DNA of 64,000 nt, taken from Amphiplicatus metriothermophilus (GTDB taxonomy: Bacteria; Pseudomonadota; Alphaproteobacteria; Caulobacterales; Parvularculaceae). The notes under the pieces were generated by a model. It did not search any database. It was not told the DNA's origin and saw only the letters and a list, made by a program, of their open reading frames with translations. Shown piece after piece: positions 44,040 through 61,492 of this stretch. The DNA lies in the NCBI RefSeq assembly GCF_900199215.1, contig NZ_FZQA01000002.1:509501-573500 (forward strand). The letters run 5' to 3'. The stretch's first letter is position 1, and the number at the start of each line of letters is the position of its first letter. The translations under genes were made by a program, and so were the position numbers.

Positions 44040-44057
44040 AATATCGTATACGATATT
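44040..44057. promoter_or_regulatory. Perfect 18-bp palindromic operator (GTATAC core)
   Basis: AATATCGTATACGATATT is its own reverse complement. It sits midway in the 139-bp gap between the divergent semialdehyde dehydrogenase and GH127 genes. A GT-n-AC core is usual for FCD-type GntR regulators, and one is encoded at 46621-47445. Weaker relatives occur at 49500, 56635 and 61475. Confidence 0.75.
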
Positions 44058-44106
44058 CTGAAACCGACATTCAACCCGCCGCCGACAAACCTAAGGGGCC
44101 GATTTC

Positions 44107-46467
44107 ATGTGGAACGATCGTCTTTCGCGCCGGAGGCTGCTCGCGAGCGGGGCGCAGGCCGCGATGCTGGCGGCCTGCGCGCCCCGCGCCAGGAAGGCAA
44201 AGCCCGCCGCCAGCGGCGTCCAGCCCTTCCCGCTCGAGGCGGTCCGCTTGAAACCCTCGCCCTTCCTTGCGGCGGTCGAGGCGAACCGGCGCTATCTGCT
44301 GAGCCTTGAACCGGACCGTCTGCTCCGTAACTTCCGGCTCTATGCGGGCCTCGAGCCGAAAGGCGAGGCTTATGGCGGCTGGGAGAGCGAGACCATCGCC
44401 GGGCACACGCTCGGCCATTATCTCTCCGCCCTGTCTCTCATGCACGCCCAGACGGGCGACGCAGCCTGCAAGGCGCGCGTTCATTATATCGTCGCGGAGC
44501 TTGCCCTGTGCCAGAGCGCGCACGGCGACGGTTATGTCGCGGGCTTTACGAGAAAGTCCGAGTCCGGAGAGATCGAGCCCGGCCGCCTTGTTTTCGAAGA
44601 GATCCGGCGCGGTGACATCCGGCCGTCGAAGTTCCACATCAACGGCTCCTGGGCGCCGCTTTACAACTGGCACAAGCTCTTCGCGGGCCTGCTCGACGCC
44701 CAGCGCTATTGCGGCGCGGGCGATGCCATCGCGGTCGCTTCAGGGCTCGCCGGCTATCTCGAAAGGATTTTCGCCCCGCTGCGCGACGAGCAGGTCCAGG
44801 AAGTCCTGAGCTGCGAGTTCGGCGGGATCCCCGAATCCCTCGCCGAGCTATACGCGCGCACCGGCGAGCGGCGCTGGCTGGCGCTGGCTGAAAAACTCTA
44901 TCACCGCGCGGCGCTCGACCCACTCGCCGAGAAGCGCGACGCGCTTTCCCATCTGCACGCCAACACGCAGATTCCGAAGCTGATCGCCCTAGCGCGCCTC
45001 CGCCAGCTTACGGGCGAGCCGGCCTATGCGACCGCGTCGCATTTCTTCTGGGAGACGGTGACGGCGCACCGCTCCTACGTCATCGGCGGCAACAGCGACC
45101 GGGAGTATTTCCAGGAGCCGAACTCCATCTCGAAATACATCACGGAGCAGACTTGCGAGTCCTGCAACACCTACAACATGATGAAGCTGACCCGGCTGCT
45201 CTACAAAGACCATCCGCAAGCGGCCTATTTCGACTATTACGAACGATGCCACTTCAATCACATTCTCGCCCAGCAGCGGCCCGACGACGGCATGTTCGCC
45301 TATATGGTCCCCCTGATGGCGGGTTCGCACAGAAGTTTTTCGACGCCATACGATTCTTTCTGGTGCTGCGTCGGCACGGGACTGGAAAGTCACGCCAAGC
45401 ATGGCGATTCGATCTACTGGCGCGACGGAGAGACGCTTTTCGTCAATCTGTTCATTCCCTCGACGCTGGAATGGGCCGAGCGCAGCGCGCGCTTCGCGCT
45501 CGATACGGACTATCCCTGGTCGGGCGACATCCGGCTTTCGGTCGAGGCGGCGGACGACGCGCCTTTCGCCATCGCCCTGCGCGTTCCGGCCTGGGCGACG
45601 GACGCGACGTTTGACGTCAACGGCGAACCCGTTCCGCTCGAAACGGACGCGCGCGGCTATGCGCGCCTCGAACGCGTCTGGGCCGCAGGCGATGCGCTGA
45701 CGTTGTCGCTTCCCATGTCGCTCCGCATCGAGCCGACGCCCGACGATCCGGACACGATCGCGTTTTTGCGCGGCCCCCTCGTGCTCGCGGCGGATCTCGG
45801 CCCTATCGACAAGCCTTGGAATGAACCGGCGCCGGCCCTCGTCGCCAACGACGCCCTGGCCGCCGTCAAGTCCGAGAGCGCCGCCGCGGCAATCCTCCGC
45901 ACCGACGGGGCCGGGCGACCCGAAGACCTGCGCTTCAGGCCGTTCTTCGAGCAGCGCGACCGGCGCACGGCGGTTTACTTCAAGCGCTATACGCCGGCGC
46001 AATGGGAGGAGGCGCAGGCGGCTTTCGCGGCGGAGCAGGCGCGCCTCGCCGCGCTCGAGGCGCGTTCGATCGACCGCATCCTGCTGGGCGACGAAGCCGG
46101 CGAGCGCGCGCATGATCTTGATGCGGATATTTCCTACGCCGTCGCCTATCGCGGCCGCAAGGGGCGCGACGCGCGCACAGGGGGCTTCTTCGCGTTCGAC
46201 ATGACCGTCGCCGACGGCCCGCTTATCTTGCAGGCGACCTATTGGGGCGGCGAGCGCGAGCGCGTCTTTCACATTCTCTTAGACGGAACGCGCATCGCCA
46301 CGCAGACCCTCGAAGGCGAGCATCCCTGGCGGTTCATCGACGTCGACTACGCTATCCGGCCCGAGCTGACCGCCGGCAAGACCTCGATCCGCATCCGCTT
46401 CGAGCCCGAGCCGGGTCACAGCGCCGGGCCCGTCTTCGGTTGTCAGCTCCTGCGCGCCGACGCGTGA
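44107..46467 (+). CDS. GH127-type beta-L-arabinofuranosidase, Tat lipoprotein
   Basis: 786 aa, AAGGGG upstream. The signal has twin arginines (RRRLLASGAQAAMLAAC) and a lipobox, so it is likely exported folded and lipidated. It matches DUF1680/GH127: GWESETIAGHTLGHYLSAL, HKLFAGLLDAQRYCG, NWHK, then CESCNTYNMMKLTRLL (Glu351, Cys353) and FWCCVGTG (Cys420, Cys421), corresponding to the zinc and nucleophile residues of the characterised HypBA1. That enzyme removes beta-L-arabinofuranose from hydroxyproline-linked arabino-oligosaccharides. Sharing an operator with a hydroxyproline-pathway gene supports the same substrate here. Other DUF1680 specificities (GH137/142/146) remain possible. Confidence 0.9.
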   Translation: MWNDRLSRRRLLASGAQAAMLAACAPRARKAKPAASGVQPFPLEAVRLKPSPFLAAVEANRRYLLSLEPDRLLRNFRLYAGLEPKGEAYGGWESETIAGHTLGHYLSALSLMHAQTGDAACKARVHYIVAELALCQSAHGDGYVAGFTRKSESGEIEPGRLVFEEIRRGDIRPSKFHINGSWAPLYNWHKLFAGLLDAQRYCGAGDAIAVASGLAGYLERIFAPLRDEQVQEVLSCEFGGIPESLAELYARTGERRWLALAEKLYHRAALDPLAEKRDALSHLHANTQIPKLIALARLRQLTGEPAYATASHFFWETVTAHRSYVIGGNSDREYFQEPNSISKYITEQTCESCNTYNMMKLTRLLYKDHPQAAYFDYYERCHFNHILAQQRPDDGMFAYMVPLMAGSHRSFSTPYDSFWCCVGTGLESHAKHGDSIYWRDGETLFVNLFIPSTLEWAERSARFALDTDYPWSGDIRLSVEAADDAPFAIALRVPAWATDATFDVNGEPVPLETDARGYARLERVWAAGDALTLSLPMSLRIEPTPDDPDTIAFLRGPLVLAADLGPIDKPWNEPAPALVANDALAAVKSESAAAAILRTDGAGRPEDLRFRPFFEQRDRRTAVYFKRYTPAQWEEAQAAFAAEQARLAALEARSIDRILLGDEAGERAHDLDADISYAVAYRGRKGRDARTGGFFAFDMTVADGPLILQATYWGGERERVFHILLDGTRIATQTLEGEHPWRFIDVDYAIRPELTAGKTSIRIRFEPEPGHSAGPVFGCQLLRADA

Positions 46468-46518
46468 AGCAGAACGCGCTGCGAAGGCTCCGCGACACCC
46501 GGCCGCGCGGAGCCCGGT

Positions 46519-46565
46519 CCCGGGTCTGCATTGCATCATCAAGGATGCTGCAATGCAGACCCGGG
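46519..46565. repeat. Dispersed palindromic (REP-like) element, copy 2
   Basis: Two perfect 17-bp inverted arms (46519-46535 and 46549-46565), ending in CCCGGG at both sides and separated by 13 nt. The same element, inverted and with one decayed arm, is at 26624-26667. It lies between the convergent GH127 and GntR genes and may also act as a bidirectional terminator. Confidence 0.8.
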
Positions 46566-46620
46566 ATGGCCGCGTTACTGATCCGAGATGGCGGAGACGC
46601 GCCGGTATATCGTCCGTACC

Positions 46621-47445
46621 TTAACGGATCTGACGCCCCGAAGGCATCGCCGGGCGAGCGCTCATGGGCGCGCGTCGGACGCGTTTGCGCGCCGCGCCAC
46701 CGCCCGGCGGCGCGGCGGTTTCATTTCCCTCGCCCAGCTCCGCGCGCAGGTCCTCCAGCGTGCGTTCGAGGTGCCGGCGCACCAGCGCGGCCACCTTGTC
46801 GGGCTTGCGGGCGAGCCAGCAATCGAGGATTTCGCGATGCTCCGCTTCGGCGCGCACATGCCGTCCGCGCGGTTCGAGGTGTTTGCGCACATAACGGTCG
46901 GCCATGACGTGCAGCCGCATCACGATGTCAGTCGTGATGCGCCGCCCGCCTGGCTGCACCAGCGCCATGTGAAAAGCGCGATTGAGCGCGCCCACGTTCG
47001 GCCGCCCGGCGGAGGCTTCCTCGTCGAGCAGCGCAAGCGCGCGCTTCGCGGCGTCCTGATCGGCCTCGTTCGCCCTGAGGCAGGCATAAGCCGCCGCCTC
47101 CGGCTCGAGCTGGAGGCGCAGGGCGTAGACCTCCTCGGCTTCCTCCGCCGACAGGGGCCGTACGAAAAAACCGCGATTGGGGTGGGAAACGACCAGCCCG
47201 TCCTGCTCCAGGCGCGCCAGCGCCTCGCGCAGCGGAATCTTACTCACGCGCAACTGCGCAGCTAGGGCATCCTGCCGGATGGGCACGTCAGGCGGAATTT
47301 CGCCGGACAGAATGAAGTCGCGCACCACCTCGACCAACCGATCAGAGAGCGTGCGCACCTCGAGATAGGCCGACAGGGCCGGCCGCTTATCCGTCGCATC
47401 CATCATCGTCACATCGCGCGCTCGTGGCATGTTCGCACGCAGCAT
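46621..47445 (-). CDS. GntR-family (FCD) transcriptional regulator
   Basis: 274 aa; ATGs at 47430, 47406 and 47403 are alternative starts. The N-terminal winged helix (LVEVVRDFILSGEIPPDVPIRQDALAAQLRVSKIPLREALARLEQDGLV) and C-terminal FCD ligand domain (EEVYALRLQLEPEAAAYA, NRAFHMALV, EHREILDCW with metal-binding His) define the FadR-like branch. A C-terminal Arg/Pro-rich tail of about 35 aa is extra. It is the third gene after the deaminase and 4-hydroxyproline epimerase genes on the same strand, so it probably controls the hydroxyproline locus through the GTATAC palindromes. Confidence 0.92.
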   Translation of the reverse strand: MLRANMPRARDVTMMDATDKRPALSAYLEVRTLSDRLVEVVRDFILSGEIPPDVPIRQDALAAQLRVSKIPLREALARLEQDGLVVSHPNRGFFVRPLSAEEAEEVYALRLQLEPEAAAYACLRANEADQDAAKRALALLDEEASAGRPNVGALNRAFHMALVQPGGRRITTDIVMRLHVMADRYVRKHLEPRGRHVRAEAEHREILDCWLARKPDKVAALVRRHLERTLEDLRAELGEGNETAAPPGGGAARKRVRRAPMSARPAMPSGRQIR

Positions 47446-47524
47446 ATCCTGAGTTGCGCCGCCGACAAATCGCCACGTCAGGAGGCGAATCGTCGCCCGT
47501 CGTAGCCGCCCCGCGGCGAGGCGC

Positions 47525-48523
47525 TCATGTCACCTGAAAGCCGCGCCAGAGCGGATCGTCCCGGTCGACCCAGATCGTGTTATAGCCGGTGGCGACCGCC
47601 GATCCCTCGATCGAAGGAATGATCGCGTCGTGATCGCCGAGGCGGATCACGTCTTCAACTGCGCCGACGAACCGGCTGCCGATATAGCTCTCATGCACGA
47701 AGCGGTCGCCCTTTCCGAGCCGCCCCTTGGCGACGAGCTGGGCCATCCGAGCCGACGTGCCGGTGCCGCAGGGGCTGCGGTCGATAGCGCCCTCGCCATA
47801 GAAGACCGCGTTGCGCGCGTCCGCTTCGGCGGATTTCGGCTTGTCCGCCCACAGAACATGACTCACGCCGCGAATGGAGGGCTCGACCGGATGGACCGGT
47901 TCGATCGCTTCGCGCACGAGTCGGCGCACCACGCGGCTGAGTTCGATGATCCGGCCCGCGCCGAGCGCGTCGAGCCCCTTATAGGCCCCCTGCGGCTCAA
48001 TGATGGCGTAATAGTTGCCGCCATAGGCGATGTCGACCTTGAGCGGCCCGAAGCCGGGCGCGTCGATCGTCACGCCTTCGGCCGCAAGATAACTCGGCAC
48101 GTTTCTGATGCGCACGGAAGCAACGCGGCCGCCTGTCTGCCTGTAGGCGATGTCGACGATCCCGGCGGGGACCTCGACGCGCAGTTTGCCCGGCTCGCGC
48201 GGGGTGATGAGGCCGTGGTCGAGGCCGAAGGTGACGAGCCCGATCGCGCCGTGACCGCACATCGGCAGGCAGCCGCTGGTTTCGATGAACAGGATGCCGA
48301 CGTCGCAATCTTCCCGCGTCGGCGGATAAAGAAAGCCGCCCGACATCATGTCATGCCCGCGCGGCTCGAAGCACAGGCTCGTCCTGATCCAATCGAAGCG
48401 CTCGAGGAAATCGAGCCGCCTCTGGGCCATGCTCGTCCCCTTTAGGAGCGGCGCGCCCCCGACGACAAGCCGAACGGGATTGCCGCCCGTATGGCCGTCG
48501 ATGCAGAAAAAGATGTGACGCAT
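47525..48523 (-). CDS. 4-hydroxyproline 2-epimerase
   Basis: 332 aa of the proline racemase family with both catalytic cysteines: Cys89 in LPMCGHGAIG and Cys252 in DRSPCGTGTSARMA. The start IFFCIDGHTGGNPVRLV and the surrounding context favour 4-hydroxyproline epimerase over proline racemase. It converts trans-4-hydroxy-L-proline to cis-4-hydroxy-D-proline, the first step of degradation. It lies 26 bp after the deaminase gene and 79 bp before the GntR gene, all on one strand. Confidence 0.92.
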   Translation of the reverse strand: MRHIFFCIDGHTGGNPVRLVVGGAPLLKGTSMAQRRLDFLERFDWIRTSLCFEPRGHDMMSGGFLYPPTREDCDVGILFIETSGCLPMCGHGAIGLVTFGLDHGLITPREPGKLRVEVPAGIVDIAYRQTGGRVASVRIRNVPSYLAAEGVTIDAPGFGPLKVDIAYGGNYYAIIEPQGAYKGLDALGAGRIIELSRVVRRLVREAIEPVHPVEPSIRGVSHVLWADKPKSAEADARNAVFYGEGAIDRSPCGTGTSARMAQLVAKGRLGKGDRFVHESYIGSRFVGAVEDVIRLGDHDAIIPSIEGSAVATGYNTIWVDRDDPLWRGFQVT

Positions 48524-48549
48524 AACGTGCCGGCCGGGGTGAGACGCTG

Positions 48550-49479
48550 TCAGGAAGCCAAGGCCCGGCGCCGGGCCTCGACCGGGCGGTTCGCGGCGGC
48601 GCGCTCCACTATCGCGACGACCTCCTCGCGGCGCACGCCCGCAAGCGGCAATCTCGGCATTCTCACCCGTTCGGAGCCCCTTCCCATGATCTGTTCAGCC
48701 AGCTTTATTGATTGCACCAGATCATGCTCCGCGTCGAGATGAAGCAACGGCATGAACCAGCGGTATATTTCCCTCGCGGTATCAAGATCGCCCTTGCGCA
48801 CGGCCGCCGCCAGCGCGATCGATTCTTCTGGAAAGGCATTGGTGAGGCCCGAGATCCATCCCTTCGCGCCAAGCAGCATGGCTTCGAGCGCCACGTCGTC
48901 AAGCCCGGCCATGACGAGGTAGCGTTCCCCGAAAGCGTTGATGAGGTCAGTGATCCGTCTCGTGTCGGCCGCGCTTTCCTTGATCGCGATGATGTTGGGA
49001 ATCTTCGCCAGCTTTTCGAGCGCGTCGAGCCCGATGCTCACGCGATAGGCCGGCGGGTTATTGTACAGCATGATCGGCAACGAGGTCGCTTCGGCGATCG
49101 CGCGAAAATGAGCGATAAGCTCCTCTGGTTGCGGAACGTAGACCATCGCCGGGAGGGCCATGAGGCCGTCGACGCCGATCTTCTCGGCGTCCCGGACGAA
49201 ACGGACCGCCCGGTCCGTCGTCAGCTCTGACACGCCGGCGATGATCGGGCGACGCCCGGCCGCGGCGTCCTTCGCCGCGCGCAGAAGGTCACGCTTTTCT
49301 TCCGGCTCCAGCGAGTTGTTTTCCCCGACCGTGCCCAGTACGACGAGGCCGTCCACCCCGTCCTCGATCAGGGCGTTCTGAATCTTCTGCGTCGCCGCAA
49401 GATCGACGGAGTGGTCCTCGGCGAACTGGGTGGTCGCGGCCGGAAAGACGCCCGACCATTCAACCGACATCACGTTCAT
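48550..49479 (-). CDS. DapA-family lyase, probable 1-pyrroline-4-hydroxy-2-carboxylate deaminase
   Basis: 309 aa from the ATG at 49479 (GAGGAG upstream). It is a DHDPS/NAL-type (beta/alpha)8 aldolase with the Schiff-base Lys167 in IIAIKESAADTRR, the Tyr in IMLYNNPP and the GTVGENNSL segment (GTTGE in DapA). In a hydroxyproline cluster this family member deaminates and dehydrates 1-pyrroline-4-hydroxy-2-carboxylate to 2-oxoglutarate semialdehyde. It heads the operon with the epimerase and the GntR regulator, behind an operator at 49500-49517. The assignment rests on both family and context. Confidence 0.9.
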   Translation of the reverse strand: MNVMSVEWSGVFPAATTQFAEDHSVDLAATQKIQNALIEDGVDGLVVLGTVGENNSLEPEEKRDLLRAAKDAAAGRRPIIAGVSELTTDRAVRFVRDAEKIGVDGLMALPAMVYVPQPEELIAHFRAIAEATSLPIMLYNNPPAYRVSIGLDALEKLAKIPNIIAIKESAADTRRITDLINAFGERYLVMAGLDDVALEAMLLGAKGWISGLTNAFPEESIALAAAVRKGDLDTAREIYRWFMPLLHLDAEHDLVQSIKLAEQIMGRGSERVRMPRLPLAGVRREEVVAIVERAAANRPVEARRRALAS

Positions 49480-49499
49480 GGCTTGCTCCTCTGACATCC

Positions 49500-49517
49500 A
49501 TTTTCGTATACCGTATC
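49500..49517. promoter_or_regulatory. GTATAC-type operator, deaminase/dehydrogenase divergent promoter
   Basis: ATTTTCGTATACCGTATC agrees with the perfect palindrome at 44040-44057 at 13 of 18 positions, including the TCGTATAC core. It lies in the 74-bp gap between the divergent deaminase (minus) and D-hydroxyproline dehydrogenase (plus) genes. Confidence 0.65.
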
Positions 49518-49553
49518 TGAAAGAAATGCAAACCCAAAGCACAGGAGACCTGC

Positions 49554-50825
49554 TTGGGGACTTACAAATCGGCGATCGTCGCCGGCGCCGGCGTGATCGG
49601 CCTTGCTTGCGCCTTCCGCCTGCAAGAGGCGGGTTATGCGACGACCTTATTCGACCCGGCTCCCGCCCGTCCGTCAGCGTCCTGGGGCAACGCCGGGCAC
49701 CTGGCGGTCGAGCAGGTCGAGCCGCTCGCCTCGCGGCGCATGATCGCCAGCGCGCCCGGCCGGCTGTTCGCCTTAGGCGGCGCGCTCGATCTGCCTCCGT
49801 CCCAGATCGCCGCCTGGGGGCCATTCCTGGCGCGCTTTCTGCGCGCCTCGGCGCCCGCCCGATTCGCCGCGGGCAAAGCCGCCCTTGCAGCCTGGCTTGA
49901 AGCCGCCATCCCCGCCTGGCGCCGGCTTGCCGCTGACATCGGCGCGCCGGATCTGGTGCGCGAGGACGGCCATTACGTGGTCTGGGGATCGGCCCGCGCG
50001 GCGGCGCGCGGCGAGGCCGCCTGGAGGCGCGTCGGCGCGGCGACCGCCGCTTTCCGGCCGGCGAGCCCGGCCGAGCGTGCGCGCCTTGAAACGATGATCC
50101 GCGCCCCCCTCGCTGGCGCGATCCGATTTGAGCGATCGGGCCAGATCGCCGACCTTGTCGCACTGCGTCAGGCGCTCGAGAGCGCCTTCGAGAGAGCCGG
50201 CGGGCGGCGGCGCAAACAGGCCGTGGCGCGCCTCGACGTCAGAAACGACGCGGCCCGCGCCATCGACGAGACGGGAGGCGAGCATCAGGCCGATATTGTG
50301 CTCGTCGCGGCAGGAACCGGCGCGCGCGCGCTGCTCGAACCCCTCGGCGTCCGCGTTCCGGTCGTCGCCGAGCGCGGCTATCATATCGAAGCCTCGGCGG
50401 GAGGCTGGCCGGCCGGTTTTCCCCCCCTCGTGTTCGAGGACCGCGCCGTAATCGCGACCCGCTTCGCGCGGTCCCTGCGCCTTTGCAGCTTCGTCGAATT
50501 CGCGCGGCCCGACAGCCCGCCCGATCCGCGCAAATGGCGCCGCCTGCGCCGGCACGCCGCCGAACTCGGCCTGCCGCTCGAAGAGCCGACGCGCGAATGG
50601 ATGGGCGCGCGCCCGACCCTGCCCGACTATCTGCCGGCCGTCGGCGCGAGCCCCGCCGCGTCCGGTCTTCTTTATGCATTCGGACATCAGCATCTCGGGC
50701 TCACCCTAGCCGCCGTCACGGGCGAAGCCGTCGCGGCGCTAGCGCAGGAGCGCGCGCCGGCGGTCGACCCGGCACCCTTCGATCTCGCCCGTTTCGGTCG
50801 CGGCAGTCTTTATAAGGAGCAATAA
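49554..50825 (+). CDS. FAD-dependent D-hydroxyproline dehydrogenase (DadA-like)
   Basis: 423 aa with a TTG start preceded by CAGGAG. A FAD-binding Rossmann motif (IVAGAGVIGLACAFRLQEAG) is followed by SASWGNAGHLAVEQ, as in DadA-type D-amino acid dehydrogenases, and by FGHQHLGLTLAAVTGE near the C-terminus. In this cluster it would oxidise cis-4-hydroxy-D-proline to 1-pyrroline-4-hydroxy-2-carboxylate, delivering electrons to the respiratory chain. It is divergent from the deaminase gene. The M24 peptidase gene follows 4 bp after its stop. Confidence 0.88.
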   Translation: MGTYKSAIVAGAGVIGLACAFRLQEAGYATTLFDPAPARPSASWGNAGHLAVEQVEPLASRRMIASAPGRLFALGGALDLPPSQIAAWGPFLARFLRASAPARFAAGKAALAAWLEAAIPAWRRLAADIGAPDLVREDGHYVVWGSARAAARGEAAWRRVGAATAAFRPASPAERARLETMIRAPLAGAIRFERSGQIADLVALRQALESAFERAGGRRRKQAVARLDVRNDAARAIDETGGEHQADIVLVAAGTGARALLEPLGVRVPVVAERGYHIEASAGGWPAGFPPLVFEDRAVIATRFARSLRLCSFVEFARPDSPPDPRKWRRLRRHAAELGLPLEEPTREWMGARPTLPDYLPAVGASPAASGLLYAFGHQHLGLTLAAVTGEAVAALAQERAPAVDPAPFDLARFGRGSLYKEQ

Positions 50826-50829
50826 CGAT

Positions 50830-52044
50830 ATGACGAAAGGCGTCGGCGGTTCGACCGTCTCGGCGGAGCTTGCGGCTCTCGGCCCCTGGCCTGACCCGGC
50901 CCCGCCGATAACGGCGGGAGAGCGAGGGGCGAGGCGCGAACGCGCCCGCGATCTCGCCGCACGCGAAGGAGCTCATGCTCTGATCGTCGGCGCGGGCGCG
51001 AGCTTGCGCTACTTCGCCGGCGTCGTCTGGGGCGCAAGCGAACGCCTCCTCGCCATGATCCTGCCGGCGAAGGGCGGCGCGCCGGTTTTCATCTGCCCCG
51101 CCTTCGAACGCGGCTCGCTCGAAGTCTCGCTCGACGGCGCGCTTGCAACGGAAGCGGACATTCAGTGCTGGGAGGAGCATGAAGACCCATACGCGCTGAC
51201 GGTGAGCGTCCTGAACAAGCTAGGCGTCAGGCGCGCGGCGCTCGACCCGGATATGGCGTTCGGCATGGCCGCGCGGCTCGCCGGCGCAGCGCGCGAGATT
51301 GAAGCGGTTCCGGGCTCGGCGATCGTCGACGGTTGCCGGATGCGCAAGTCCCCCGCAGAGATCGCGCTGATGAGGCAGGCGAAGTCGATGACCCTTGAGG
51401 CGCATCGGCGCGCCGCGCGTATTCTGGCGCCCGGAATCACGACAGCCGATGTCCGCGATTTCATCAGCGAAGCCCACCGCCGGCTCGGCGCTGCGGGCTC
51501 GACCTTCTGTATCATCCTGTTCGGCGAGGCGACCAGCTATCCGCACGGCGTCCCGCGCGAGCAGACCCTGCGCGAGGGCGACGTCGTACTAATCGATACG
51601 GGCTGCAACGTCGAAGGATACCATTCCGACATCACGCGCACTTACGTCTTTGGCAATCCATGTACTGATGTTAGGCGCATATGGGAGGTTGAAAAAATGG
51701 CGCAGGGGGCCGCCTTCGAGGCCGCCCGACTCGGCGCGCCCTGCGAGAACGTCGATGCGGCCGCACGCCGCGTGCTGGCGCAAAACGGTTTCAGTCCGGA
51801 CTATCGCCTGCCCGGACTTCCGCATCGCACCGGCCATGGCGTCGGCCTCAGCATCCATGAGGCGCCTTATCTCGTGCGCGGCGACGCGACGCCGCTCGAA
51901 GTCGGCATGTGCTTCAGCAACGAGCCGATGATCGTCGTTCCGGGCCGTTTCGGCGTGCGGCTGGAAGATCATTTCTACATGAGCGAAAATGGGCCCGTCT
52001 GGTTCACGCAGCCTTCGCCCTCGCTCGACGCGCCTTTCGGCTGA
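50830..52044 (+). CDS. M24-family Xaa-Pro peptidase/prolidase
   Basis: 404 aa; its ribosome site (AGGAG) lies within the last codons of the dehydrogenase gene, so translation is coupled. A creatinase-type N-domain is followed by the pita-bread domain with all five metal ligands: IDTGCNVEGYHSD (two Asp), HRTGHGVGLSIHE (His), FSNEPMIV (Glu) and VRLEDHFYMS (Glu). It should cleave Xaa-Pro or Xaa-Hyp bonds and so free hydroxyproline from imported peptides for the adjacent pathway. A lack of a signal peptide suggests cytosolic action. The substrate is inferred from context. Confidence 0.88.
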   Translation: MTKGVGGSTVSAELAALGPWPDPAPPITAGERGARRERARDLAAREGAHALIVGAGASLRYFAGVVWGASERLLAMILPAKGGAPVFICPAFERGSLEVSLDGALATEADIQCWEEHEDPYALTVSVLNKLGVRRAALDPDMAFGMAARLAGAAREIEAVPGSAIVDGCRMRKSPAEIALMRQAKSMTLEAHRRAARILAPGITTADVRDFISEAHRRLGAAGSTFCIILFGEATSYPHGVPREQTLREGDVVLIDTGCNVEGYHSDITRTYVFGNPCTDVRRIWEVEKMAQGAAFEAARLGAPCENVDAAARRVLAQNGFSPDYRLPGLPHRTGHGVGLSIHEAPYLVRGDATPLEVGMCFSNEPMIVVPGRFGVRLEDHFYMSENGPVWFTQPSPSLDAPFG

Positions 52045-52055
52045 TACGGGAAAGC

Positions 52056-52189: not shown

Positions 52190-55105
52190 TCAGAAGCGCG
52201 CCCGCGCGCCGACGAAGAAGCGCCGGCCGACGACGTCGTAGATAGACACGTCGGTATTGGCGTCCCCGCCGAAGCTGAAGCCCAGGAGCGGCGGCTGCTC
52301 GTCGAATACATTATCAAGGCCGGCGAAGAGCTGGAGATTTTCCGTAGCTTGATAGGTCGTCGCCAGGTCGACATATTTACGCAGCCCCGCCTCAGTCAGG
52401 AAGGAGTTGACGCCGGGGAACAGCTCCATCTTGCCGATGAGGCGGTTCTGCACGCGCACCGACAACGGGCCGCTGTTGTAGGACACGCTCATCGTCGCCT
52501 TGAAGTCGGGCGTGCCGAACACCGTCTGGCCGGTGCAGCCGCCGCCGAAGAATCCTGCGCAGTCGCGGGCCGGGGCGTTAACGACTTGGCTCGTATTCTC
52601 GAACATCCAGCCCGCGACGGCTGTGAACTGCACCGCCGGGGCGTCTCCGAAGAGCGACAGCGACTGCGGCAGATCAGCGCCATAATCGACCTGCACGTCG
52701 ACGCCGCGCACCTTGCGAAAACCGATATTGTTGAGCGCTGTGCTGACGAAATCGATCTGACCGTTTGAGAAGCGATGGATCGCCTGACAGGGCTCGCTCG
52801 AATTATCGAGCAGGGCGAAGCACGCATCCACCGTCTGCTGCGCGCCGATAGACGCGACTGCGTTGTCTATCTCGATATTGAAATAGTCTACGGCCAGGTT
52901 GAGTCCGTCGATGAAGGGCGCCCGGATGACTGCGCCGACCGTGAACGTTTTCGAGCGCTCCTCCGTCAGGTTTGGATTGCCGCCGCTTTCTGCTTCGAAA
53001 CCCACATTGATCTGCTGGAAGGTGTCGATGTCGGAAGCTGGAACGCCCTGCGCCACGCATAGATCCTTCTGCGCCTGGGTCGGCGAAAAATCGACGTCGC
53101 ATAGATCGTCCCCGGCGGTGAATCCAAGGCTTGTCGGCGAAAACAGCTCGTTCAGAGACGGCGCGCGCAGGGCGCGATTGTAAGCCGACCGGAAACGCAG
53201 CCAGTCGACGGGAGCCCATTCGCCGCTGACCTTCCATGTCACCGCGCCGCCGAAGTTCGAATAGTCCGAATGCCGGACAGCGCCTTCCACGGCGAGGATG
53301 TCGAAGAAAGGCTGGTCGGCCAGGATCGGGATGCGAACCTCGCCGAAGAATTCGGTGACGCTGTACTCTCCGGCCGTGACGCCGCGTGAGATCGGTCCGT
53401 ACTCACCCGCCAGATCGGTCGCGCCGGGCGTGAAGTCGTATTCGTCATGCCGATACTCGAAGCCGGCCGCGGCCGCGACAGCGCCCGCAGGCAGATCCAG
53501 CAGCTCGCCTGAGACCGAGCCGCCGAAAATATAGCGCTCGAAGATTTCCTTTGAGGTGCGCGTCGTGGCGATGAAGGCGCCGGCTTCAGGCGTGATCGAG
53601 TCGATGCCGAAGGGATTGACCGGCACGCAACCGAGTATCTGCACCCGGCAGACCGCGTTGCCTGAACCATCATCGACGGCGTCAAGACCGAGCCCGAGGC
53701 GCGTCAGCGAATACTGCCCGTCGATCGTTTCATCCGTGCGCGAACGCTGGAACTGCCCGAAAACGTCCCAACTCCAGTCGCGCTCGGCAAGCGCAAACGA
53801 GCCGCGCAGACCGCCGGTCATGCTGAATGCGGAGCGTTCGTAATCGTAATGGCGCGGCCCTGTTTCGACGCCGCGCCTGCCCGTGCCCACGACGATAGCG
53901 TCGCCGTCGCCATCAGGATCAAATAGTTGCGGGTTATCGATGAAAAACTGCCTGACAGGATCGGGCAGAACCGGATTGGTCGCGTAATCCGGCACCACGA
54001 GCCCGCCGCTCGGGTGGCCGGGCGTGCGCAAGGCGAAGGATTCCTCCGCCTGCTGGTAGGCGTTTCGCGTGTTCACATAATGAACTTCCGAATAGGCCTC
54101 CACGCTCGGCGTGATCTCATAAGAAGCAAGACCACCGATCTGCTCGCGCTCCATCGGGCGCAGAAGATAATTGAGCGTGGCAAAATTGTAGGCGTCTTCC
54201 GGCTGGCAGAACGGGACAACCACGCCGCCTTCGTCGAACCGCACGCCCGACAGGGTCGTGCACGAGCCCGAGGGCGTCAGATCGACGCCGTTGAGCGAAG
54301 CGAGCTGCCCGCTGCTGAGCGCGATCCGCGTGCCTGGAATGTTGCTGGAGCCGAACGGCACGAGCGCGCCGTCGACCTCGCCCAGAGAAATTTCCGAGAA
54401 CTCCCGATCGGCCATGAAGACAGGGTCGCGCTTGGTGTAGGAAGCGTGAACGACCGCGTTGCCGCGTCCGCCGTCGAAATCCGCGCCCAGCGTCAGATCC
54501 GTCTTGTGGTGGGCGCCGTCGCCCTTGGTCGTCTGCCCGTATTGATAAGAGGCCTCGACGCCTGTGAAATTCTCCTTGAGGATGAAGTTCACCGCGCCGG
54601 CTATAGCATCCGAGCCGTAAACGGCCGACGCACCGCCGGTGATGATCTCGACCCGCTCCACGAGCGCGCTCGGCACGGTCGCCAGATCGACGTTGCCGTC
54701 GCCGTTGGCCGCGACGAAGCGTCGGCCGTTGACCAGAACAAGCGTACGCGTCGACCCTAGCGCGCGCAGGTTCGCCGTCAGGACGCCAGATCCGCCGGCG
54801 GCGTTGACGCTTGACGTGTTGCCAGCCGCGAGCTGCGGAAATTCGTACAGGATGCTCTCGATGGTCGCGTCGCCCGCATTCTGAATCTGCTCAGCGCCGA
54901 CCACCGTCGTCGGGCTGGGCGCGGAAAGATCGCTGCGCTGAAGACGCGAGCCGGTAACCACAACCACGTCTTCCGATCGCCCTTCCTGCGCCGCGGCCGG
55001 CGGAGCGCCCGCCGCCGCTATCGCCGCTGCGCCCGTCAACACCGTCGTTAGTTTCAGCCGCATCTTGCGCCGCCTGGCGCTGTTTATCCTGGTCCCGTTC
55101 GTCAT
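52190..55105 (-). CDS. Large TonB-dependent receptor (peptide/hydroxyproline locus)
   Basis: 971 aa from the ATG at 55105 (GGAGGGTGG upstream; ATG at 55126 also possible). A signal peptide ends in AAAQEG, followed by a TonB-box-like EDVVVVTGSRLQRSD, the plug domain (LRALGSTRTLVLVNGRRFV, ITGGASAVYGSDAIAGAVNFILK) and a long barrel ending in GARARF. The pattern is that of the large proteobacterial receptors for peptides or oligosaccharides, e.g. in Caulobacter and Xanthomonas. It is on the same strand as, and 41 bp after, the M24 homologue, in the middle of the peptide-hydroxyproline block. The ligand may be a Hyp-rich glycopeptide; that is inferred. Confidence 0.9.
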   Translation of the reverse strand: MTNGTRINSARRRKMRLKLTTVLTGAAAIAAAGAPPAAAQEGRSEDVVVVTGSRLQRSDLSAPSPTTVVGAEQIQNAGDATIESILYEFPQLAAGNTSSVNAAGGSGVLTANLRALGSTRTLVLVNGRRFVAANGDGNVDLATVPSALVERVEIITGGASAVYGSDAIAGAVNFILKENFTGVEASYQYGQTTKGDGAHHKTDLTLGADFDGGRGNAVVHASYTKRDPVFMADREFSEISLGEVDGALVPFGSSNIPGTRIALSSGQLASLNGVDLTPSGSCTTLSGVRFDEGGVVVPFCQPEDAYNFATLNYLLRPMEREQIGGLASYEITPSVEAYSEVHYVNTRNAYQQAEESFALRTPGHPSGGLVVPDYATNPVLPDPVRQFFIDNPQLFDPDGDGDAIVVGTGRRGVETGPRHYDYERSAFSMTGGLRGSFALAERDWSWDVFGQFQRSRTDETIDGQYSLTRLGLGLDAVDDGSGNAVCRVQILGCVPVNPFGIDSITPEAGAFIATTRTSKEIFERYIFGGSVSGELLDLPAGAVAAAAGFEYRHDEYDFTPGATDLAGEYGPISRGVTAGEYSVTEFFGEVRIPILADQPFFDILAVEGAVRHSDYSNFGGAVTWKVSGEWAPVDWLRFRSAYNRALRAPSLNELFSPTSLGFTAGDDLCDVDFSPTQAQKDLCVAQGVPASDIDTFQQINVGFEAESGGNPNLTEERSKTFTVGAVIRAPFIDGLNLAVDYFNIEIDNAVASIGAQQTVDACFALLDNSSEPCQAIHRFSNGQIDFVSTALNNIGFRKVRGVDVQVDYGADLPQSLSLFGDAPAVQFTAVAGWMFENTSQVVNAPARDCAGFFGGGCTGQTVFGTPDFKATMSVSYNSGPLSVRVQNRLIGKMELFPGVNSFLTEAGLRKYVDLATTYQATENLQLFAGLDNVFDEQPPLLGFSFGGDANTDVSIYDVVGRRFFVGARARF

Positions 55106-55146
55106 TGGTCCACCCTCCGCTTTCATCTGTCCTTCTTTTGCTTCCC

Positions 55147-56612
55147 TCACCCGCCAGACGCCGCTCTAGGAAGCTCGCTCATGAGCAGCGCCGTTTCGTG
55201 TAAAGACAAAATGTCGATGAACGACCACTCCTCGCTCCACGGCAGCCGCGACATCTGCAAAGCCGGTCCCTCGGGCATAACCGCGAACATGTCGGAGAAG
55301 TTCGAACCGATGCCGGTTTCGGAATCGAACAGACCAGGCTCGACCGAAAAGCACATGCCCGGATCGAGGATCGTTTCATCGCCGAGCGCGAGCCAGGGCG
55401 GCTGGTGGCCTTCCGTACCCTCGCCGTGCGCCGGCCGGTGATAAATGTATTCTGCACGCCCTGCTCAACCTGGAACCTGTGAATGGCGCAAGCGACGTCC
55501 TGGCAAGGCGTTCCGGCGCACGATAGATCCTTCTGCATAAGACAGGCGTCGCGATTGACGGTCCATATCTTTTTCATATGGTCCGTGTACGGTCTTATCA
55601 TGCATGGGCGGTAAAGCTCGCCGCCACATCCGCCGATACGCACGACGCCGGCGATCTGCAGGGCCTGTCCGCGCTCGACCTTATTGTGGTGGAACTGATT
55701 AGGATGCGGATAGCTGGTCGCTTTTCCGGCGCGGCAGCCGACGCCGATGGTTATCCCGACCGCCATATGCGGCCCGCCGTCGCGCACGATGTCCGCCATG
55801 ACGAGGTCGGTTCCGTATTTCTCCGCTGCCGAAGCGATGTCGTAATCGATAAGGTCCGTGCCATGCGTCAGAAGAAGATCGCGCGCGAAGGCGTGAATCC
55901 TGTCGAAATAGGCGTAGGCTCGCCGGGCGAGCGCAAGCTCCTCCGGCGTCTTGCGCATGCGCATGTTCATGCACGCCGCGCTCATATCGCTCATTGCCCG
56001 CCCGAGCGTCCTCACGATCTTTTTCTGCACGGACGGAACGAGCTCGGCGTCGGCGGCAAGCTTGCGCCGTGTATAGCCGCGCCGCTTCAACCCTTCCGCG
56101 GCCCATTCCCACAGATCGACCTTCGGGCCTTTGACCACTTCGCCAAGGTGGGGAAAACCGCTTTCGGCGTGATGCCAGTCGAAATACATCTCGCCGTCGG
56201 CGAACCACCATGACTCGATAAGGTCGCGATCGAGCGCGGGATAGAACCAGATCGGCCCTTCGCCCTCGCTCGGAATGAAGGCGTAGATCATCCGCTCGGT
56301 GGTGGTGTGCCACAGGCCAGTGAAATAAATGACGTTCCAACGGTCCGTCAGCAGCACGCCGGCGTAATCGGCCTTCAGTCGCTCCTGCAACAAGCGCGTG
56401 CGGCGCTTGCTCCAGTCGAGATCGAGTCGGTCATAGGCGGCAGGCTGAAGATCATCCTTGTCGGCGGGCAGGAAGAGCTTGCTCGATTCCGCGCCGAGCC
56501 CTTTGCCCGTGCGGGCGGCGTCCTGCGCCGCAGCCCGAAGGCCCGCGCCCCCGAAAAGCGCGCCGCTTGCGGCGGCCGCGCCGGCGGTCAGCAGTTGGCG
56601 TCGATCAACCAT
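55147..56612 (-). pseudogene. Frameshifted M24-family peptidase homologue, Tat-exported
   Basis: The ATG at 56612 starts a Tat signal (DRRQLLTAGAAAASGALFG) and an M24 N-domain, but the frame is lost near 55447. The remaining C-terminal core (YHRPAHGEGTEGHQPP, LDPGMCFSVEPGLFD) is in another frame down to a stop at 55147. A single missing base restores a full-length protein. The usual Asp metal ligands also look altered (ALQIAGVVRIGGCGGELYRP), so even the intact protein may be a non-metal relative. It shares the operator at 56635-56652 with a broken amidohydrolase and leads into the TonB receptor gene. Sequencing error cannot be excluded. Confidence 0.8.
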
Positions 56613-56634
56613 CGGCCTAGCCTTCTCGAGGTTC

Positions 56635-56652
56635 ATAAACGTATACGAAATA
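56635..56652. promoter_or_regulatory. GTATAC-type operator, M24/amidohydrolase divergent promoter
   Basis: ATAAACGTATACGAAATA keeps the CGTATACGA core of the 44040 palindrome and about 12 of 18 positions. TACGGTATGC directly beside it gives a second half-site. It supports 56612, not 56636, as the M24 start, since it would otherwise overlap the coding region. Confidence 0.55.
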
Positions 56653-56774
56653 CGGTATGCTAATTGTCAGGGCTGTCAACCGGCCGCCACAAAGAAAGGC
56701 TGGGAAAGCGACTGGCCGTTGCAAATGAGTGACGGCCATGGGCCGGCTGACGAAACCGAAAGGGAGTGAGTTTG

Positions 56775-58266
56775 ATGACAAAGAGCTTCAACGGGCGGCG
56801 GCGCGCCGCCGGCGCCCTCGCTTTGGCCTGTCTCGCCTTCGCAGGGATCACCGCCGCGCAGGAGCCCGCCGACATCGCGATCACAGACGTGACGGTCATC
56901 GACGGGACCAGCGCGCCGGCGCGCCAGCATATGACGGTCCTGGTCAAGGATGGCCGGATCGCCGCCATCGCTCCGGCCGGACGCGGCGGCGTGGATGCGG
57001 CGCGAGTCACTGACGGGCGGGAGAAATACCTTCTCCCTGGCTTCATCGATAGCAACGTCCATGCGACCGTCTGTGGCAACGCCAAGCGCTGCGAGACGGT
57101 CGTGAAGTATGGCGAACGCAACGAGGCGCTAGCAATCGAGTCGGCCCAACGCCATCTGAAATACGGCGTCACGACCATCCGCAACAGCTAAGGCGTGCTG
57201 TCGGCGCTCGTCGGTGTGCGAACGCATCGAGCGCGGCGATGCGATTGACGCGCAGATGTTCGTGGCCGACAACATCATCGGCTGGGGCGAGCCGTTTTCG
57301 ACCACCTTCTCGCTCATGGCTGAAGAAGAGCTCACGCCTTTTCAAGAGCAGTGGAACGATCTGGTCGCGCAAGGCGTGGGCGAAGAGCTCGCCGATATGG
57401 GCACCGAGGCGTTGCGCGCCGCGATGGGCGCCTATCTCGACAATGGGCCTGACTTTATAAAGTACGGCGGCTCTGCGCATTTTCGCCAGCCCGTACTGAT
57501 CGGCTTCTCTCCGGGCGCCCAGTGCGTGATCGTGGAGGAAGCCCATAAGCGCGGGAAAAAGTCGAAACCCACGCCACCAGCCAGGACCCTCTGCGGCTCG
57601 CCGTCGATGCCGGGATCGACTTCATTCAGCACCCGGAGATCCTGAGCGCTGACTATCCGGACGATCTTATCGCGCTGATCGTCGAGAGCGACGTGCTCTG
57701 CGGGATTCTCTCAAATATGCTCACGGGGCGGATCTGGCGGCGGCATCGCGATGCGCGCCGCGAAGCGCTTTGCAAATATGAAGGCGGATCGCCGCCTGCA
57801 ATGATCGCCGAGCGCCGCCGGGGCGCCGAAGAACTGGACGAAGACCTCGAATTGCAGCGACGCAACGTCACGCCTCATCAAGGCCGGCTGCACGGTCTCC
57901 ATCGCCACCGATTATTACCAAGGCGACGCCCCTGAGTTGCGCCGCGCGCCCAAGCCCTTGGAGCAGGAAGCCGGACTCGGTTCGCTGCTCGCCATCGAAG
58001 GGCTTGTCGAACTCGGCATGATGCCGATGCAGGCCGTCGTCGCAGCCATCCGCAACGGCGTTCTCGCGGTCGGGATGCTCGACGAGATGGGTACGATCGA
58101 GGAAGGAAAGACCGCGGACCTAATGCTGCTCGGCGCCGATCCCCTGCGCGACATCGCCAATGTCCGGAAGATCAAGCATGTAATCGCCCGCGGACGCCTC
58201 ATCCACCGCGACAGTTTGCCGGAAAAGCCGATCTTCCACCTGCCGGCGGCCGAAAAAGGATTTTAG
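56775..58266 (+). pseudogene. Decayed amidohydrolase gene
   Basis: The ATG at 56775 (AGGGAG upstream) starts a signal peptide and an amidohydrolase N-part (ITDVTVIDGTSAPA, KYLLPGFIDSNVHATV). At 57189 a TAA replaces what is probably a Tyr codon. A frameshift follows near 57212, another at the A5 run about 57556, and a third near 57870. The remaining pieces still read as an amidohydrolase: IDAQMFVADNIIGWGEPFS, AGIDFIQHPEIL, AGCTVSIATDYYQGDAPE, TIEEGKTADLMLLGADPLRDI. At least four lesions mean it cannot make the enzyme. It sits beside the frameshifted M24 gene and shares its operator region. Confidence 0.85.
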
Positions 58267-58302
58267 AGCGCCGCGGGCAAGATACTCAAATAACGCCGGC
58301 TT

Positions 58303-59676
58303 TTATAAAAACGCAAACACAAGCAGCGCAGCGATCGCGATGGGCGCGACGTAACGTATGAACAGTCGCCAGAGACGGAAGACGACGCCGTCGGGAAGCT
58401 CCAGCTCTTCGAGCGCCATGCGACGCGTCATCACCCAACCCGCGAAGATCGCGGTGGAAAAAGCGCCGATCGGCAACAATATATTCGAGGCGATGAAATC
58501 GGTCGCGTCGTAAATGGTCATGACCTCGAACAAAGCGATAAACCCGAGGGGATGGAAGTCATTCAGCAGGTTGAAGGACAGCACGGACCCGGAGCCGACC
58601 GCGAAAATGAGCGCGCCGAAGACAATCGCCGCGCGCCGGCGCGATACGCCCCGACGTTCTTCGGCCCAAGACAGCAACGGCTCGAAATTAGCCACTGTCG
58701 AGGTGAGCGCTGCCGCCGTCAGCAGAAGAAAGAACAACGCCGCAAAGACGCCCCCGAAGGGCATCGCGCCGAAGGCGAGCGGCAAGGTTTGAAAGACCAG
58801 ACCCGTGCCTTCCGTCGGCTCCAGGCCGTTCGCGAAGACGACAGGAAAGATCGCGAGCCCCGCCACGAGCGCCACGAGCGTGTCGGCGGATACGATGATG
58901 ATCGAGGACGTCGAGGGCTTGATCGTAGGCGGCAGATAAGCGCCATATGTCATCATTCCGCCCATCGCAACGCCTACGGAGAAAAACGCTTGGCCGATGG
59001 CCGCCAGAAAGGTCATCGCGGTCACATCTTCAAACTTCGGCGCGAATAAAAATGCCGCCGCCTGTCCGAACCCCTCTGTCGTCGCGCCGTAGATCGCCAG
59101 AAGGATCAGAATTACGAACAGCATTGGCATGAGCACCAGCGTCGCGCGCTCGATACCGCGCGTGACGCCCCGACTGGTGATAAAGGCCGTCAAGGCGAGC
59201 ACCACGCCTTGCCAGAATGCGAGCCGCCACGGACTCGCGAGAAGTTCGTCGAACATTGCGCGCGACTGCGCGGTGGAAAGTCCTTGGAAGCCGCCGAGAA
59301 TCGCGCGAACAAGATAGTCCATCGCCCAGCCGGCGACGACTGCGTAAAAGGTCAGGATCGTGAATGTGGCGATGAGCGCGATCAATCCGACGACGCCCCA
59401 TGCTGCACTTGCGCCGGCCTCTGTCGCAACCTTGCGCATGCTTACGATCGGACTCATGCGTCCGCGCCGGCCGATCATCAGCTCGGCGGCGACCAGCGGC
59501 GCCCCGATGGCGAAGATGACCGTAAGATAGATGAGAACGAAGGCCCCGCCCCCGTTCTCGCCCGCAACATAGGGAAAGCGCCAGATATTGCCGAGGCCGA
59601 CCGCGAAGCCGATTGCAGACAACAGGAAGGTCGTACGCGACGACCATGTTTCATGCGTAGACTGATGTTCGGACAA
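58303..59676 (-). CDS. NSS-family sodium-dependent amino-acid transporter
   Basis: 457 aa, TTG start with GGAAGGG upstream. Around 11-12 hydrophobic helices are visible, with the family start WSSRTTFLLSAIGFAVGLGNIWRFPYVAGENGGGAFVLIY (TM1 sodium/substrate site) and ADTLVALVAGLAIFPVVFANG near TM7. NSS/SNF carriers import neutral amino acids with Na+. It lies downstream of the amidohydrolase on the same strand (48-bp gap) and near the DUF885 peptidase, so uptake of amino acids or small Hyp/Pro-type products is plausible. Substrate inferred. Confidence 0.93.
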   Translation of the reverse strand: MSEHQSTHETWSSRTTFLLSAIGFAVGLGNIWRFPYVAGENGGGAFVLIYLTVIFAIGAPLVAAELMIGRRGRMSPIVSMRKVATEAGASAAWGVVGLIALIATFTILTFYAVVAGWAMDYLVRAILGGFQGLSTAQSRAMFDELLASPWRLAFWQGVVLALTAFITSRGVTRGIERATLVLMPMLFVILILLAIYGATTEGFGQAAAFLFAPKFEDVTAMTFLAAIGQAFFSVGVAMGGMMTYGAYLPPTIKPSTSSIIIVSADTLVALVAGLAIFPVVFANGLEPTEGTGLVFQTLPLAFGAMPFGGVFAALFFLLLTAAALTSTVANFEPLLSWAEERRGVSRRRAAIVFGALIFAVGSGSVLSFNLLNDFHPLGFIALFEVMTIYDATDFIASNILLPIGAFSTAIFAGWVMTRRMALEELELPDGVVFRLWRLFIRYVAPIAIAALLVFAFL

Positions 59677-59724
59677 GGAACGGCCCTTCCAATGCCAATG
59701 ACGATAAATTAACAGCCGCAGCGG

Positions 59725-61410
59725 TCAGCGGCGCGGCGACGTCTCGACGGGCATGGGCCCTGGCGGAACGCCGAGCTTCTCCTTCGCGGAGCGCACCATC
59801 TGACGCACGTCGCGCAACAGCACGCGTGCGTCATAAACGATCCCGTCCTTGATCGTATATGCGACGCCGCCTATGCGTTCGACCTCGCCGGTATCGTCAT
59901 TAAGCCTGATCGTCCCCGTGCCGAGCAGGACGTGAAGATTCTCGAGCGGGTTCTCCTTGACGATAACGAAGTCGGCTTTTTTTCCGACCTGCACGGAGCC
60001 GACATCATTGCCGATGCCGAGCTGCTCGGCGCCGGCGAGCGTCGCGGCGTGGATGACTTCCAGAGACGAGAACCCCGCCTCTCGCAGAAGCTCCATCTCC
60101 TGAACGTAGCCGAAACCATAGAGGTTGTAGATATAGCCTGAATCAGAGCCGACGGTGACGCGACCGCCGCGATTCTTGTATTCGTTCACAAACTGCATCC
60201 ACAGGCGGTAGTTCTCTTTCCAGTCGACCTCTTCTTCGAGCGTCCAGTAAAACCAGTACGATCCGTGTGCGTCGCGATTTGGCCGGTACCAGTCCCATAG
60301 CCCCGGCATGGTGTATTCATCGTGCCAGATCGCGCGACTCATACGCATGAAGTCGCGGCTCGTCAGATAAGCGGTAAAAGTGGGGGAAAGACCGAAATCG
60401 CGCTCGAGCAGAGTGGTCATCACTTCGTTCCACTTCTCGGAGCCAGGTCTCGCGGCCTGGCGCCATAGCCGGCCGGCCTCGGCGAAGCGATGCTGCTCGT
60501 CATGATAGATGTAATCATTCGGATAGCGCTGGATGCGCTTATCCTCGAACATCGCCTCTGGCAGGCCGTACCAGTGCTCCATGCCTTTAAGTCCACGCGC
60601 CGAGGTGTCGAGCACGTTCGCCTGGGTAACTGCAATCTGGGCATGATGCATAGTGGAGTTAAGGCCGATCCTGTTCGCTTCATCGAGCGCAGCCCAGAGA
60701 ATGTTCGCAGGCGCGCCGATGAACTTGACGCCTGATGCGCCGAGCCGTTTCATCAGGCGGATCTGCTCGCGGGCCTCGGCCTCCGTCGTGGCGGGCGGAA
60801 TCCCGAGCGAGCCGCTGTTGAACATCGGATAGACTTCCATGCGCGGGCCTGTGATCTCATTGCGGGCGCTGCGCCGGGCGGTTTCGATCATCCAGCGCGT
60901 ATCTTTTGCGCCGACCGTGCGTCCGCTGGTGACGCCGTGCGCAAGCCAGAGCTTCAAAATATACTCGGGCGGGACGCCCTGCCCCTCTTCCTCCGTATGC
61001 AAATGGAGATGCGTGTCGACGAAACCCGGCAGGACGTACATCCCGGAGACGTCAATCTCGCGGGCGCCGTTAGCCGGCGGGCGCTTTTCCGGATCGATCG
61101 CGAGTTTCGGCGCGCCGACGACCTTGATCTCGACGATGCGGTCCCCCTCGACGACGATGTCGACTGGACCCTGCGTCGGCGCGCCCGTTCCGTCAATCAG
61201 ATACCCCCCGCGCAGAATGAGCCGGTCGAACGGCCCCTCGCCTTCGGCGCGCGCTGCGACCGGCCGCGGCGCGGCGTCGGCCCGCGGCGCGAGGCCGGCG
61301 AGCGCGACCGCGACGCACGCCGCTGCGGCGAACGCTTTCACGCCGCCGAACAGGCGCGCCGTTCCGATTTTGGCGCGCTTGCACGCGCGCACGCTCTTTG
61401 TCGTCGCCAT
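59725..61410 (-). CDS. Secreted amidohydrolase (imidazolonepropionase/Xaa-Pro dipeptidase-like)
   Basis: 561 aa; GAGGG before the ATG. A signal peptide with an Ala-rich core ends near PRADA. It shows the amidohydrolase metal pattern: VDTHLHLH (His-x-His), GVKFIG (bridging Lys), STMHHAQ and MEHWYG (His), and VGSDSGYIYN (Asp). Substrate-specific residues cannot be assigned; peptidase-type members hydrolyse Xaa-Pro, Xaa-Arg or acyl-amino acid bonds. It is divergent from the DUF885 peptidase gene across a GTATAC site and precedes the NSS transporter gene. Confidence 0.87.
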   Translation of the reverse strand: MATTKSVRACKRAKIGTARLFGGVKAFAAAACVAVALAGLAPRADAAPRPVAARAEGEGPFDRLILRGGYLIDGTGAPTQGPVDIVVEGDRIVEIKVVGAPKLAIDPEKRPPANGAREIDVSGMYVLPGFVDTHLHLHTEEEGQGVPPEYILKLWLAHGVTSGRTVGAKDTRWMIETARRSARNEITGPRMEVYPMFNSGSLGIPPATTEAEAREQIRLMKRLGASGVKFIGAPANILWAALDEANRIGLNSTMHHAQIAVTQANVLDTSARGLKGMEHWYGLPEAMFEDKRIQRYPNDYIYHDEQHRFAEAGRLWRQAARPGSEKWNEVMTTLLERDFGLSPTFTAYLTSRDFMRMSRAIWHDEYTMPGLWDWYRPNRDAHGSYWFYWTLEEEVDWKENYRLWMQFVNEYKNRGGRVTVGSDSGYIYNLYGFGYVQEMELLREAGFSSLEVIHAATLAGAEQLGIGNDVGSVQVGKKADFVIVKENPLENLHVLLGTGTIRLNDDTGEVERIGGVAYTIKDGIVYDARVLLRDVRQMVRSAKEKLGVPPGPMPVETSPRR

Positions 61411-61474
61411 CGGATCAACCCTCCCGAACTCTCTTTCGAACGCTTACCGCGCTGGACAAGATCATTCTAGATCG

Positions 61475-61492
61475 AATACAGTATACTATGTC
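61475..61492. promoter_or_regulatory. GTATAC-type operator, amidohydrolase/DUF885 divergent promoter
   Basis: AATACAGTATACTATGTC has a GTATAC core with ATACA/TaTGT flanks and partly matches the 44040-44057 palindrome. It lies between the divergent amidohydrolase (minus) and DUF885 (plus) genes. It is the weakest of the four sites. Confidence 0.5.

Follow-up and report, generated by a model that had tools for sequence, protein, structure and literature searches.

A HypR regulon in Sinorhizobium meliloti was reportedly described by White in 2012. HypR of this organism acts by repression, with 4-hydroxyproline (4-Hyp) as the inducer, and Leyn (2016) described Proteobacterial HypR regulons with a catabolic core that, in Alteromonadales, is extended by proline peptidases and a TonB receptor (PMC5343134). 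HypR is also listed among the regulators with GT-N2-AC sites (Suvorova et al., PMC4494728). In the available part of its description (PMC6608401), HypR of Streptomyces coelicolor is a Hyp repressor of the FadR subfamily with three metal-site histidines, and its regulon adds an extracellular protease (collagenase). Two other described systems share some features with the locus presented here, namely Atu1419 of Agrobacterium fabrum (an FCD repressor with the operator ATGTATACAT, which has the same GTATAC core; PMC7797058) and XeHypBA1/XCV2724 of Xanthomonas euvesicatoria (a related beta-L-arabinofuranosidase, which frees arabinose from Ara-Hyp; PMC6085000).

The window (the whole stretch of 64,000 nucleotides of Amphiplicatus metriothermophilus that was analysed) contains four related sites that very probably serve as operators of one regulon, controlled by the GntR/FCD protein encoded at 46621-47445 as a metal-dependent repressor and induced by Hyp or an early pathway intermediate (Table 1). 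As in the HypR regulons, a GntR/FadR-type regulator is encoded in the hyp operon, proline peptidases and a TonB receptor are present and the operators are of the GT-N2-AC type. The entire HypR core (epimerase, oxidase, deaminase, semialdehyde dehydrogenase and the regulator gene itself) lies behind sites 1 and 2, and the aldehyde dehydrogenase (ALDH) is 53% identical to that of the S. meliloti hyp locus. The window regulon adds a GH127/GH146 enzyme and a trans-3-Hyp dehydratase, neither of which is mentioned in the available text of Leyn, where a text search found no arabinofuranosidase (PMC5343134). The operator flanks differ as well and are TTGTATACTAA-like in S. meliloti, whose hyp locus carries the GTATAC-cored sites TTTTTGTATACTAATT and TAGAGTATACAAAC. 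The S. coelicolor motif, CTNTGC(A/C)ATGTCAC, is unrelated to the window operators and not clearly palindromic, and no arabinofuranosidase was seen in the available part of that account (PMC6608401). Atu1419, in turn, governs hydroxycinnamate catabolism (PMC7797058), while the partner operon of XeHypBA1 is under HrpX rather than a Hyp-responsive GntR protein, and no link to Hyp catabolism was seen in its description (PMC6085000).

Table 1. Genes and putative operators of the proposed regulon (positions within the window).
Feature	Position	Strand	Evidence or remark
Trans-3-hydroxy-L-proline dehydratase, downstream of ALDH	41349..42386	-	NF047722, 579 bits vs cut-off 550
Aldehyde dehydrogenase (ALDH), probable alpha-ketoglutarate semialdehyde dehydrogenase	42396..43967	-	Pfam Aldedh
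Putative operator 1, AATATCGTATACGATATT	44040..44057		Perfect palindrome; 81 bp to ALDH start, 58 bp to GH127 start; matrix 31.4
GH127/GH146-type beta-L-arabinofuranosidase	44107..46467	+	PF07944, 2.2e-128; signal peptide MWNDRLSRRRLLASG...
GntR/FCD regulator, proposed repressor	46621..47445	-	Pfam FCD E=1e-22, GntR E=1.5e-14, both over cut-off
4-hydroxyproline epimerase	47525..48523	-	NF010578, 535 bits vs cut-off 376
DHDPS-family protein, probable pyrroline-4-hydroxy-2-carboxylate deaminase (HypD-type)	48550..49479	-	Pfam DHDPS, 6.7e-62
Putative operator 2, CCATTTTCGTATACCGTATCTG	49498..49519		Between the divergent DHDPS and DAO genes; a further half-site box at +7
FAD D-amino-acid (D-hydroxyproline) dehydrogenase/oxidase (DAO)	49554..50825	+	Pfam DAO, 6.9e-44
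M24 prolidase / Xaa-Pro peptidase	50830..52044	+	Pfam Peptidase_M24 + Creatinase_N
TonB-dependent receptor (TBDT)	52190..55150	-	Pfam
Creatinase/prolidase-fold protein, first gene of TBDT operon	55179..56615	-	Weak Pfam Creatinase_N; likely start MVDRRQLL
Putative operator 3, TCATAAACGTATACGAAATACG	56633..56661		Second box ATACGGTAT at 56650-56658
Amidohydrolase pseudogene	56775..58266	+	Three frame changes, near 57215, 57560 and 57810-57866
Sodium:neurotransmitter-type symporter (possible Pro/Hyp importer)	58303..59676	-	Pfam SNF, 5.9e-50
Amidohydrolase (prolidase-like)	59725..61410	-	Pfam Amidohydro_1; PDB relatives named prolidase / Xaa-Pro dipeptidase
Putative operator 4, CGAATACAGTATACTATGTCAA	61473..61494		Amidohydrolase/DUF885 divergent gap
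DUF885 protein	61566..63395	+	Pfam, 1.4e-50

GTATAC occurs four times in the window (at 44046, 49506, 56641 and 61481), compared to a mean of 1.22 in dinucleotide shuffles, 2 out of 100 of which reached a count of four. All four copies are located in divergent gaps of the Hyp block, as the initial annotation had stated. Site 1 separates the ALDH and trans-3-hydroxy-L-proline dehydratase genes from the GH127-type gene, and site 2 the genes for the DHDPS-family deaminase, the epimerase and the GntR/FCD protein from those for the D-amino-acid oxidase and the M24 prolidase. Site 3 lies between the creatinase-fold and TonB-dependent receptor genes on one side and the broken amidohydrolase gene on the other, and site 4 between the amidohydrolase and SNF-type symporter genes and that for the DUF885 protein. 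The shared regulon of about 12 genes proposed earlier is supported, with the count becoming 13 intact genes and one pseudogene. The counterpart of this pseudogene in the closest syntenic relative (G055) is an intact ORF of 552 aa at the same place; a sequencing error is possible, but three frame changes in a single gene favour decay. The DHDPS-family protein, whose gene usually adjoins the epimerase gene in relatives, probably has the activity of the deaminase.

The consensus of the putative operator is a symmetric 16-bp element, ATAYnGTATACnRTAT. The four sites had been described as palindromes, which is correct for site 1, where the self-reverse-complement agreement about the GTATAC centre is 9/9, but not for sites 2, 3 and 4 (4/9, 4/9 and 6/9), which are degenerate copies. 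Overlapping half-sites, ATAYnGTAT, are nevertheless present in each of the four, by which sites 2-4 can be recognised as related. The odd palindrome ATACNGTAT (three copies in the window, seven in the 3.16-Mb genome) was dropped as the true operator, because relatives carry the even 16-bp ATATCGTATACGATAT, of which ATACNGTAT is only a half-site. Secondary matrix matches were observed near sites 2, 3 and 4 (at 49515, 56657 and 61476), offset by 7 or 14 bp; the operator is self-similar, with GTATACn repeating at a 7-bp period, and overlapping or tandem dimer binding is therefore possible. Simple scanning for sigma-70 promoters in the four gaps placed none convincingly and had no decisive outcome.

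Conservation of the sites was assessed with a symmetric matrix built from 21 hypD-type promoters of related loci, leaving out the sequences of the window genome and G055. With this matrix the four sites are the top four of the window (31.4, 23.8, 23.4 and 19.8 bits), and the earlier observation of four related sites is confirmed. The next matches overlap these sites, and the first unrelated match reaches only 8.2, in line with the earlier observation that the window holds no comparable site elsewhere; the best score over 30 Markov-simulated windows was 15.3. In leave-group-out runs all 21 training sites ranked first to third within their loci of 14-21 kb. In G055 every one of the four equivalent gaps contains a site, including the equivalent of operator 1 (L033 7989), the operator 3 layout GTATAC...ATACGGTAT and, for operator 4, ATACCGTATACTATGT, while operator 2 is kept at the DHDPS/DAO gap in most relatives. 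A site also lies directly upstream of GH127/GH146 genes in six genomes from four genera (G000, G055, G218, G170, G270 and G397), although such promoters were absent from the training set.

It is unlikely, though conceivable, that the GntR protein binds these sites as an activator, or activates some promoters and represses others. CitO of Enterococcus, an FCD protein, is described as an activator in the available part of its account (PMC4746285), and the varied distances from site to start (28 to 131 bp) would fit activation. In relatives, however, the site on the hypD side lies 25-46 bp from the aligned start, a short distance that suits promoter blocking, and the characterised Hyp regulators of the GntR/FCD family are repressors. 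Repression by the GntR/FCD protein is therefore the preferred reading.

The initial annotation placed an FCD-type GntR gene within the same operons, which agrees with the domain content of the protein, an N-terminal GntR winged helix followed by a C-terminal FCD domain. The Asn/Asp-His-His-His metal site of FCD domains is present as N155, H159, H203 and H225, which are invariant in 32/32 members of its clade and match Asn137, His141, His192 and His214 of Atu1419 (PMC7797058), and ATAYnGTATACnRTAT has the GT...AC palindrome (GT-N2/3-AC) expected of FCD operators. The recognition helix is VSKIPLREAL. In Atu1419 the essential operator G is read by Arg45 (PMC7797058), while the window clade has a lysine at this position (Lys69, in 32/32 members), compared to arginine in 14/16 outgroup GntR/FCD proteins. 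Arginine is typical of the FCD subfamily rather than strictly defining, and the change is conservative, but because FCD proteins read this G with arginine, the corresponding contact in the Lys69 clade is putative. The S. meliloti protein taken as HypR, which was picked by its position beside the hyp genes (its record is unannotated), is only 26% identical to the window regulator and falls in another clade of the tree, so that the two do not qualify as orthologues.

Brevundimonas, Sphingopyxis, Duganella and Pseudoduganella encode GntR orthologues that are about 49-69% identical to the window protein, as do 21 further genomes of the order. Across genera and families these orthologues go together with this operator, placed at the corresponding promoters. 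One hyp locus (G397:C2 372704-374216) holds two tandem GntR paralogues, 57% and 46% identical to the window protein. In all ten examined loci with a regulator orthologue the hypD-type promoter scores at least 17.7; eight of these belonged to the training set, while the two outside it reached 24.9 and 20.9. In regulator-less loci of GntR-free genera, hypD-type promoters score at most 9.5. Loci with a 36-42% identical GntR protein have an altered palindrome of the type TTGKATACAA / TTG(T/G)ATACAAT, which suggests that regulator and operator may have changed together. The initial link between the sites and the GntR/FCD protein is thereby strengthened, as the operator disappears with the regulator and changes when the regulator has diverged, and as G055 repeats all four sites. 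The palindromes TTGTATACAA / TTGGATACAAT were seen at L140-L151 and L155, mostly in genomes with a 36-42% GntR protein. Many of the loci L110-L135 (from GntR-less genomes, mainly of genus g22) share another conserved element, about GGATCGTATAGGTTCG, some 31 bp upstream of the hypD-type gene, which is perhaps a core promoter.

Order-wide (398 genomes), a site with zero or one mismatch occurs in 17/22 genomes with an orthologue versus 77/376 without (Fisher p=6e-8, a value that overstates independence because the genomes are related to one another). No site within one mismatch of the consensus was found in five genomes that do have the regulator (G036, G142, G174, G343 and G358), with weaker sites visible in G036 and G343. 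Conversely, high scores occur at loci without a detected close orthologue, i.e. 22.8 in G152 (which has a 42% GntR protein) and 20.0 in G017. A strong site (31.9 bits, CTAATATCGTATACTATAATGG) was also observed at G095:C1:1408801, in a genome where a regulator orthologue was not detected. That a different FCD regulator of the genome reads the sites is very improbable: two further FCD genes do exist (at C15:82234 and C14:9275), but across genomes the operator occurs along with orthologues of the GntR protein of the cluster, and the loci fetched around these two genes contain no site above 7.3 bits.

The genome-wide scan consisted of pattern searches and fetched stretches, which cover GTATAC-containing sites and could miss those that lack GTATAC. 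Within this scope 44 sites fit WNNGTATACNNW, and full-strength sites that stand in a promoter were found only in the cluster. Elsewhere in the genome two sites reach 19.8 or more (24.6 and 21.5), both of them intragenic (in MFS and AMP-binding genes); since site 4 (19.8) scores below them, the score alone is no proof of function. The refuting condition named in the initial annotation, an equal frequency of the motif inside genes, does not hold for full-strength sites, while bare GTATAC is common there. As additional regulon members, the strong sites C6:236516, C6:180945, C15:26433, C10:80588 and C4:288426 were rejected for being intragenic, and C14:71815, the best non-genic site outside the cluster (18.7), for lying between convergent gene ends. 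The reading of GTATAC as a core-promoter (-10) element that is common in the genome is scarcely credible and was rejected, since, despite the resemblance of TATAC to a -10 box and the recurrence of GTATAC elsewhere, the remaining copies are almost all intragenic and the conserved unit is the 16-bp symmetric element, which is missing from hypD-type promoters of regulator-less relatives.

Computation shows that the sites exist, that they are conserved and that they depend on the regulator, while physical binding, repression rather than activation, and the inducer are predicted. Dimers of the GntR/FCD protein would occupy the consensus element of every divergent promoter and repress transcription on either side, that of the regulator's own operon among them. 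Hyp, or an early breakdown product, would enter the metal-containing FCD pocket and release the repressor, upon which the 13 intact genes would be switched on together. Hyp-rich glycopeptides would be imported (TonB receptor and symporter), beta-L-arabinose would be stripped from Hyp by the GH127/GH146 enzyme, and the peptides would be cut at Pro/Hyp by the M24, creatinase-fold, amidohydrolase and DUF885 proteins, with trans-4- and trans-3-Hyp being converted to 2-oxoglutarate or proline.

The best PDB relative of the GH127/GH146-type enzyme is 5opj (465 bits), presumably the GH146 enzyme BT0349, compared to only 58 bits for the GH127 type enzyme 3wkw, and the Zn-site residues (E-x-C and CC) are retained in the 5opj alignment, in agreement with a GH146/GH127 domain. 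In Hyp-rich glycoproteins, related enzymes split arabinose off Ara-Hyp (PMC6085000, PMC10850190), and by analogy with these relatives, for which the activity is known, the window enzyme likely acts on Ara-Hyp. Therefore, the regulon looks built for arabinosylated Hyp glycopeptides of the plant or algal type.

Since HypR regulons with the same core have already been described, this kind of regulon is not new. The parts that appear to be new are a regulator clade of its own, marked by lysine, and the inclusion of an arabinofuranosidase, although the orthologue group of Leyn may include this clade. The chances seem evenly balanced that a Lys-marked FCD lineage with the operator ATATCGTATACGATAT independently took over Hyp control (in Caulobacterales relatives, a Sphingopyxis and Duganella/Pseudoduganella), tying the removal of Hyp-linked beta-arabinose to Hyp catabolism in an extensin-type, whole-glycoprotein regulon that answers to the amino acid and not to the sugar. 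What was a guess from gene neighbourhood becomes a regulon that can be tested and whose operator is defined, and the vaguely annotated GH127/GH146, DUF885, amidohydrolase and TonB-receptor genes obtain a likely role in the use of arabinosylated Hyp glycopeptides. The locus and its relatives may also offer a natural case of an FCD recognition helix and its operator changing together.
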